Shown in pieces: positions 5,382 to 7,059 of a stretch of 45,524 nucleotides of DNA. Each line of letters begins with the position of its first letter. Within the stretch, counting starts at the first letter, position 1. Location of the stretch: the NCBI GenBank assembly GCA_021735165.1, contig JAIPHP010000010.1, forward strand, positions 1-45,524, read 5' to 3'. A model generated the notes under the pieces. It did no database searches. It saw nothing but the letters and a program-made list of their open reading frames with translations, and was not told the origin of the DNA. The stretch is from Candidatus Woesearchaeota archaeon (GTDB lineage Archaea; Nanobdellota; Nanobdellia; Woesearchaeales; 21-14-0-10-32-9). Position numbers and translations under genes: made by a program.

Positions 5382-7028
5382 TTAAAAATCTTCTAGACTT
5401 ATTTGGCCTTTTCTTTTTTTTGGTTTGACAATTATTTTATCTTCTGATAAGTTTTGGCCAACTTGTTTTTTTACGTCCAAAGCCAGTTTTTTGCCGATTA
5501 AAGAAGCAAGGCTGGAAATATCAATTTTTTTAACGTCGCCAAGATCCTTGACGCTGTTAGCAAATAGTTTTCTAGCACGAACACGACCAACACCTTTTAA
5601 CTTAAGCAAAGGTAATAATTCTTCGCGTACACCATTCTTTAATCTGATTCTTAACTTTAAAATAAAATTGCTAATTTCTCTAAATCCTCGAATTTTACTA
5701 AGTTCATAGCAACTAAACAATAACCAATCCATTCTGTCAAGTTTAGAATTCAATTCACCTGGAGTGACGTTGTATTCGTCAAATAATTTGTCCTCGCCAA
5801 ATTCATCAATCCAAGAATCTAAAACAATGCTTGTTTTAATGCTGTCAAGAAACTCATCATATTCTTCGTTGTACTCATCAGGTTCTAAACAGTAAAAACT
5901 GCCAGATTCTTCAACAAGTTTGGAGTTGACTAAGGGAATATCTTTTTGTCTAGTGCGAATAAGAGGCCTCATTTCTAAAGTCCAACTAGCCATTTGCAAA
6001 AAACTAAAAGGTTTGAGAACTTTTGCATCATTAGCTCTTTGCATACAAAGCAATAAATAATTAGCAGTTTGGGGATCTAAGTATAGTTCAGCAATTCTTT
6101 CTCCTAGTTTTGTAGCTTTTAATTCAAAATCTTTATTTTCATTATTTAAGATGTCTGAAGCAGACATAAAATCAGTGTTTAAAGATTTGTATTCTGATCT
6201 TTGTTCTTTGTTCTTTGTTTTTTTATCATTATTTGAAATAATGAATTCCCATTCTTCTAATTTTAAAACCATTAAGTCAAGAATTGAAAATAATTTGGAT
6301 AAATCTTTATATTGATGCGCATAAAAAGTTTTAGATAAAAATGTTCTCAGTTCAGACATGCTACCTACGATTTTAGTGGCAACTAAGCTAAGAATGTATG
6401 TTCTAAGAACTGGTTCAACAGCTAGCTTAGATAATATTTCTTCAGGAAAACCTTTAACATAAGTCTCCCAAATGTCTTCTTTTTCGCTATTAGTTGATGC
6501 AATGCAAACAGCTTCACCTGTTTTGTCAAATTTTGGGCGTCCGGCTCTCCCAGCTTGTTGTTCATATTCCAGAACAGGAATATTACTCATCCCCCAGACA
6601 CCTCCGTACCTTTTCAAATCTCGAATAATAACACGACCTGCAGGTAAATCTACGCCTGCCGCAAGAGTTGGAGTAGCACAAATTATCTTTATTGTTTTGT
6701 TTCTAAAACCTTCTTCGATTAAATCTCTTTGTAAAGAATTAAGACCTGAGTGATGAAACGCAACACCTCTAAGTAAGGTTTTACTAAGGCGTTTACACTG
6801 TTTTGTAGGATTGGAAAGTGCATGTAAAACTTTATCAGATAATGTTTCTAAATCTTTAGACTCGTCATTAGTAGAAAACGCCTTGCTATAAAGGCGTTCA
6901 GCAACTGCTTCTGCACTTCTTTTAGTGTTTACAAAGACAATTAGCTGTTTATTTTTTTTTAAAGCATCCAGTGCAATATCCACTAAAGAATCTCCGCTTT
7001 TTTCACTGACTTGTTCAAAGACTCCCAT
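5382..7028 (-). CDS. hel308: Hel308-type Ski2-like DNA helicase lacking RecA1 (C-terminal half of a split gene?)
   Basis: Full Hel308 enzymes have about 700-750 residues and unwind stalled forks 3' to 5'. This 548-aa protein begins where RecA2 begins: motif IV region LIVFVNTKRSAEA, motif V CATPTLAAGVDLPAG, motif VI QQAGRAGRP. The winged helix follows (about 215-310), then a ratchet helix bundle, a helix-hairpin-helix end (LLKLKGVGRVRARKLFANS) and a C-terminal QISLEDF that fits a PCNA-interacting PIP box. Walker A and the DExH box of RecA1 are absent, so it cannot hydrolyse ATP alone. A good TATA box lies 27 nt before the ATG and the upstream DNA has no helicase remnant in any frame, so this is not a simple frameshift. 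A separately encoded RecA1 partner is the likeliest explanation. Confidence 0.87.
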   Translation of the reverse strand: MGVFEQVSEKSGDSLVDIALDALKKNKQLIVFVNTKRSAEAVAERLYSKAFSTNDESKDLETLSDKVLHALSNPTKQCKRLSKTLLRGVAFHHSGLNSLQRDLIEEGFRNKTIKIICATPTLAAGVDLPAGRVIIRDLKRYGGVWGMSNIPVLEYEQQAGRAGRPKFDKTGEAVCIASTNSEKEDIWETYVKGFPEEILSKLAVEPVLRTYILSLVATKIVGSMSELRTFLSKTFYAHQYKDLSKLFSILDLMVLKLEEWEFIISNNDKKTKNKEQRSEYKSLNTDFMSASDILNNENKDFELKATKLGERIAELYLDPQTANYLLLCMQRANDAKVLKPFSFLQMASWTLEMRPLIRTRQKDIPLVNSKLVEESGSFYCLEPDEYNEEYDEFLDSIKTSIVLDSWIDEFGEDKLFDEYNVTPGELNSKLDRMDWLLFSCYELSKIRGFREISNFILKLRIRLKNGVREELLPLLKLKGVGRVRARKLFANSVKDLGDVKKIDISSLASLIGKKLALDVKKQVGQNLSEDKIIVKPKKRKGQISLEDF

Positions 7029-7050: not shown

Positions 7051-7059
7051 TTTATAAAT
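7051..7059 (-). promoter_or_regulatory. TATA box of the truncated Hel308 gene
   Basis: TTTATAAAT is centred 27 nt upstream of the start codon at 7028. This supports transcription of the shortened gene in its own right. Confidence 0.6.

Follow-up and report, generated by a model that had tools for sequence, protein, structure and literature searches.

The Split Gene and Its Partner

The 45,524-nt window analyzed here, from contig JAIPHP010000010.1 of a Candidatus Woesearchaeota archaeon (order Woesearchaeales), contains an open reading frame (ORF) for a 548-aa protein related to Hel308/Hjm, the archaeal Ski2-like helicase of superfamily 2 (SF2). The protein begins at the second RecA-like domain (RecA2) and continues through the winged helix, domain 4 and the helix-hairpin-helix (HhH) domain to a tail resembling a PCNA-interacting protein (PIP) box. 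Pfam placed Helicase_C at residues 86-165, HTH_61 (winged helix) at 196-263, Helicase_dom4_arc (PF21280) at 342-466 (1.3e-25) and HHH at 473-520; the PF21280 match lies well above Pfam's own cut-off, while those of HTH_61 and HHH_5 fall below it. Motifs IV-VI of RecA2 are present as AFHHSGL, TPTLAAGVD and QQAGRAGRP. No DEAD domain was detected by Pfam in the protein, and Walker A and DExH are absent from the ORF. In a phmmer search against solved structures, the best relatives were the archaeal Hel308/Hjm chains 2zj2, 2va8, 2p6r and 9b15, and the match to 2zj2 covers residues 225-711 (1.6e-80), so that only the first ~220 residues of Hel308 are missing. An earlier interpretation of the DNA letters (hereafter the sequence-only reading) had described the gene as a Hel308 without its first RecA-like domain (RecA1) but with its own promoter, and both points hold. 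A TATA box precedes the ATG (Table 1) and, as had also been noted, no remnant of RecA1 lies upstream, where a 155-bp gap is followed by a divergent radical-SAM-like gene.

The same reading had proposed to look in the genome for a partner of about 200 residues that carries motifs I-III and ends before RecA2. Such a partner was found in the window's genome (G000; 1.10 Mb, 31 contigs, 97.9% complete) on another contig, as a 221-aa ORF at C16:19275-19937 (+), hereafter the N-half, which ends where the window protein, the C-half, begins. It carries the RecA1 signatures that are absent from the window gene, namely Walker A (TPTASGKT), DEIH and SAT, arranged as ...CTPTASGKT...DEIHLL...LSATIGNP... and followed by WRPVKLRKGVYLDGEIEFDD, where it ends at its stop. 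The N-half matches 2zj2 over residues 7-217 (1.3e-66) and 2p6r over 1-218; together with the C-half match, the two products thus tile Hel308 with few linker residues between them. NCBIfam PRK02362 is likewise matched by both, over 2-219 and 223-710, respectively. The five domains and canonical motifs of Hel308/Hjm (PDB 2zj2/2zj8, 2p6r) are therefore shared by the pair, colinear over 2zj2 7-711. The fission site is the RecA1-RecA2 linker, and no conserved residue has been lost.

A DEAD domain was found at eight places in this genome, with the domain at C16:19356-19838 lying in the sole short DEAD-only frame (239 codons), and Helicase_C at five, four of them in full-length helicases with DEAD and the fifth in the window gene. 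The two halves are the sole orphan RecA1 and the sole orphan RecA2 of Hel308 type in the genome, and the pair of 221 and 548 aa represents Hel308 in split form, as opposed to the canonical single chain of ~700 aa. Neither half reaches the full-length cut-off of NCBIfam NF040935 (1200 bits), the N-half scoring 231 and the C-half 310 bits with partial coverage each; annotation by whole-length models misses Hel308 in Woesearchaeales. A second Ski2-like helicase, of full length and widespread in the order, is encoded on contig C27 (L005/L010, 662-codon frame) and shows about 31-34% identity to each Hel308 half.

Table 1. Features of the Hel308 C-half gene in the window.
Feature	Coordinates	Strand	Basis
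C-half of split Hel308 (RecA2 + winged helix + domain 4 + HhH), 548 aa, own ATG	5382..7028	-	ORF, Pfam, phmmer, NCBIfam
TATA box TTTATAAA, -30 to -23 from ATG, leaderless promoter	7051..7058	-	sequence
RecA2 domain, approximate limits, residues ~10-185	6474..7001	-	Pfam, phmmer
Motif V TPTLAAGVD, residues 119-127; intein insertion site in several relatives	6648..6674	-	conservation
Motif VI QQAGRAGRP, residues 157-165, with presumed arginine fingers	6534..6560	-	conservation
Winged-helix domain (HTH_61)	6240..6443	-	Pfam
Domain 4 / ratchet domain (PF21280)	5631..6005	-	Pfam
Helix-hairpin-helix domain 5	5469..5612	-	Pfam
PIP-box-like tail QISLEDF	5385..5405	-	motif conserved in relatives

Distribution and History of the Fission

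As the sequence-only reading had suggested, related genomes were checked for the same break, and it was found to be order-wide. Among the matches listed, it lies at one site in every Woesearchaeales relative with a full half. In 60 close relatives, full N-half matches occupy frames of ~215-281 aa and full C-half matches mostly frames of ~500-590 aa, on separate contigs or at distant positions, while the ~150 N-halves of the order among the matches listed (279 genomes of the phylum) all lie in frames of 197-299 aa. The break site was read in detail in 55 N-halves, which terminate 0-8 residues past a GVYxxGxIEF-like strand, and in 56 C-halves, whose starting points differ from the Met of the window protein by a few residues at most. 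G020 and G122 each consist of one contig, on which the halves are separated by 37 kb and ~142 kb, respectively, and lie on opposite strands. Other orders of the class with a recognizable Hel308 carry one fused frame of 687-755 aa, in which the linker is continuous (e.g., EVDFFGGKEKITIPEKFSEPAVQLAINTI). The halves thus show what characterizes split genes in DPANN archaea, that is, one conserved site, unlinked halves and a fused form outside the clade.

Two genomes outside this pattern were also noted. At class level, G280 was rejected as a split Hel308, since a scaffold gap and a contig edge interrupt a frame that runs across. In G271 (L133, L134), of another order, the break in Hel308 lies elsewhere, past motif VI and directly behind GRAGRP, and the rest of the gene is 26 kb away on the opposite strand; either an inversion has produced an independent fission or the genome is misassembled.

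In a tree of concatenated Hel308 proteins (32 split, 16 fused), the split forms clustered, with two fused genes of family f82 inside when the tree was unconstrained; forcing the split forms together cost 8.5 log units and was not rejected (p-value of the approximately unbiased test, p-AU, 0.33). The f82 genes belong to another order (L116, L117 in G287, G071) and group with G014 with support of 87/83, a placement that may reflect transfer, re-fusion or a long-branch effect. They share a DFFxxKENI-type linker with other fused Hel308 genes, a feature that speaks for ancestral fused forms and against re-fusion. The fused state is taken as ancestral because Hel308 structures solved from other archaea consist of one chain, and the simplest and most likely reading is that the gene was split once, in the stem lineage of the order.

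Conservation, Promoters and the C-Terminal Tail

The catalytic residues are at least 95% conserved on both sides of the break, comprising GKT, DExH and SAT in the N-half and AFHH, TxTLxxG and GRAGRP in the C-half. Near-invariant stretches include Walker A, DExH, SAT and RGPTLE in the former, and AFHHxGL, TxTLxxG, GRAGRP, SKLAxEP, PGE and GRxRAR in the latter. The ratio of nonsynonymous to synonymous substitution rates (dN/dS) between G000 and G001 was 0.095 for the N-half and 0.108 for the C-half, values that are approximate given a dS of ~1.4. The distances of the two halves are correlated (Mantel r 0.64), a result not used as evidence of interaction because it has no control protein. A TATA-like motif lies 20-29 nt upstream of the start in 37 of 55 C-halves and 22 of 55 N-halves (at most 9 in any other bin), and this peak suggests that each half is probably a separate leaderless transcription unit in many genomes.

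The QISLEDF tail, already singled out as PIP-box-like, is real and conserved in relatives as KRKGQxSLxx(F/Y). A QxxhxxF/Y/W motif, by which a PIP box is defined in sequence, ends 51 of the 56 C-halves, and the tail may place the enzyme at PCNA.

In four relatives (L143-L146 in G048, G131, G214, G036), motif V of the C-half is interrupted between TPTL and SxGxD by a full intein. These inteins carry a LAGLIDADG endonuclease (Pfam Intein_splicing 6.1e-17, LAGLIDADG_3), and G096, G108 and G017 likewise have an intein in the C-half, as judged by the match pattern.

A Probable Two-Subunit Helicase

Both halves are present, complementary, intact, conserved and separately TATA-led. We consider it very probable that they make up a two-subunit Hel308, expressed from two unlinked genes that go back to one ancestral fission, with the ATPase site rebuilt in trans. 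In SF2 helicases, ATP sits between RecA1, with Walker A/B, and RecA2, whose motif VI supplies the arginine fingers; in Hel308, a ring is closed around the 3' strand by the winged helix and the ratchet domain. Because RecA1 is a separate chain in the split form, the composite ATP site would have to form between subunits. A small subunit of ~220 aa, consisting of RecA1 with motifs I, Ia, Ib, II and III, would form a heterodimer with a large subunit of ~510-590 aa, the product of the window gene, comprising RecA2, winged helix, ratchet domain 4, HhH and the PIP-like tail. The small subunit would bind ATP through Walker A/B, and the large subunit would hold the DNA and complete hydrolysis with its motifs V/VI; the presumed arginine fingers of motif VI would thus act on ATP bound by the other polypeptide. 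The joint may be the C-terminal strand of the N-half, GVYLDGEIEF, which probably docks on the C-half because it is kept in nearly all relatives though it lies beyond the DEAD core. Physical assembly, ATPase activity and 3'-5' unwinding in trans are predicted from sequence, and trans-assembly appears to be the best explanation, since both half-sites are conserved and the genome offers no other candidate partner. Such an enzyme would be a natural two-subunit SF2 helicase, whose RecA1 and RecA2 could be separately handled, mutated and titrated.

Some observations weigh against this two-subunit reading. In ~15-20 Woesearchaeales genomes the N-half occurs without the C-half; completeness is rated at 96-100% for a few of these, including G100 and G121 (both 100%). 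Other genomes of the order show a C-half without an N-half. PF21280 was found nowhere in G015, G016, G022, G100, G113, G121, G130 and others, where the N-half is present. Assembly gaps probably account for most one-half genomes, but loss or separate use of one half may also be the cause. The f82 genes within the split clade of the unconstrained tree would require re-fusion or transfer, without reaching significance. Finally, an AlphaFold model of the C-half from 8 alignment rows was of low confidence (predicted local distance difference test, pLDDT, 66; predicted template modeling score, pTM, 0.42); it is uninformative on assembly and was kept out of any fold search.

Among the other explanations, the halves could have drifted to separate jobs, one as a RecA1-only ATP-binding protein and the other as a RecA2/winged-helix/ratchet DNA-binding protein, with no joint helicase. 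Their own promoters and loci, and the genomes in which a single half is apparent, are in line with this. However, motifs I-III and V-VI, conserved at the level given above, are sensible only as one composite site, and the window's genome contains no other orphan RecA1 or RecA2 partner, which makes such a divergence unlikely. We give a similarly small chance to a functional fission in which the C-half waits on PCNA/DNA as an inert RecA2-ratchet clamp, and the RecA1 subunit is a separately expressed activator that switches it on by docking.

Joining of the two halves by trans-splicing after expression, at the protein or RNA level and through a split intein or a tRNA-type mechanism, is highly improbable. 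Archaeal PolB provides known examples of split inteins (PMC4390880), and inteins do occur in the C-halves of relatives, but no intein sequence was seen at either edge in the 55 N-halves and 56 C-halves read, the N-halves stop just past their last strand, the C-halves have their own start codon, and the start of the C-half gene is TATA-led and leaderless. The split is a stable, ancient fission, as the sequence-only reading had argued, and neither an assembly error nor a pseudogene. An assembly artefact, by a contig break or misjoin within a normal gene, has a genuine precedent in G280, and the window's genome is a metagenome-assembled genome in 31 contigs; yet the stops and TATA-led starts coincide in 55/56 independent assemblies, some single-contig, the halves are far apart with different neighbors, and the closed genomes G020 and G122 show the same split, so that the chance of an artefact is negligible. 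Equally negligible is a decaying pseudogene or deletion remnant, which an ORF without Walker A and DExH might suggest, given the partner gene, the intact RecA2 motifs, a dN/dS of ~0.1 and a break common to ~150 genomes.

Comparison With Known Split Enzymes

Descriptions of gene splitting in DPANN archaea usually draw on Nanoarchaeum and present it as scattered, lineage-specific fragmentation tied to genome reduction. The sequence-only reading had pointed to split enzymes in DPANN archaea such as this one, and split genes of N. equitans/Nst1 indeed include reverse gyrase, Lhr (NEQ003-409), PolB and others, with Hel308 unlisted (PMC3655853). Like them, the Hel308 split stably divides an informational enzyme between two unlinked genes, with post-translational assembly expected; it differs in that the cut is fixed at one site order-wide and divides the ATPase site into halves. 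Known Hel308/Hjm is always one chain, whereas in Woesearchaeales RecA1 is a separate polypeptide. A core repair helicase has thus been split, through its composite ATPase site, across an order-wide radiation with genomes of up to ~2 Mb, and the split is a clean marker character for Woesearchaeales.

A split of Dph1/2 in some Woesearchaeota/Pacearchaeota, cited in PMC6349945, concerns the same broad group and an unrelated enzyme. A survey of archaeal genes found widespread fusions and fissions, with DPANN and one other lineage as the exceptions (PMC11237513). That survey required genomic co-localization of at least one split set per family (PMC11237513), so a dispersed split like that of Hel308 could escape it. 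Full-text searches of open-licence papers for Hel308 together with DPANN, Nanoarchaeota or Woesearchaeales/Woesearchaeota, and for archaeal split helicases, returned no report of a Hel308 split; it may have been mentioned before in a table or in a subscription journal.

Gene Neighborhood

Gene order is scrambled around the fused gene, the N-half and the C-half, and a shared-neighbor search for the ancestral locus gave no indication of which half moved. The C-half ORF of G049 (L147) continues into an MnmC-like methyltransferase-like domain, for a total of 769 aa. The only recurring neighbor is an arginyl-tRNA-synthetase-like gene beside the N-half in G134 and G179, and, by eye, in the window's genome.
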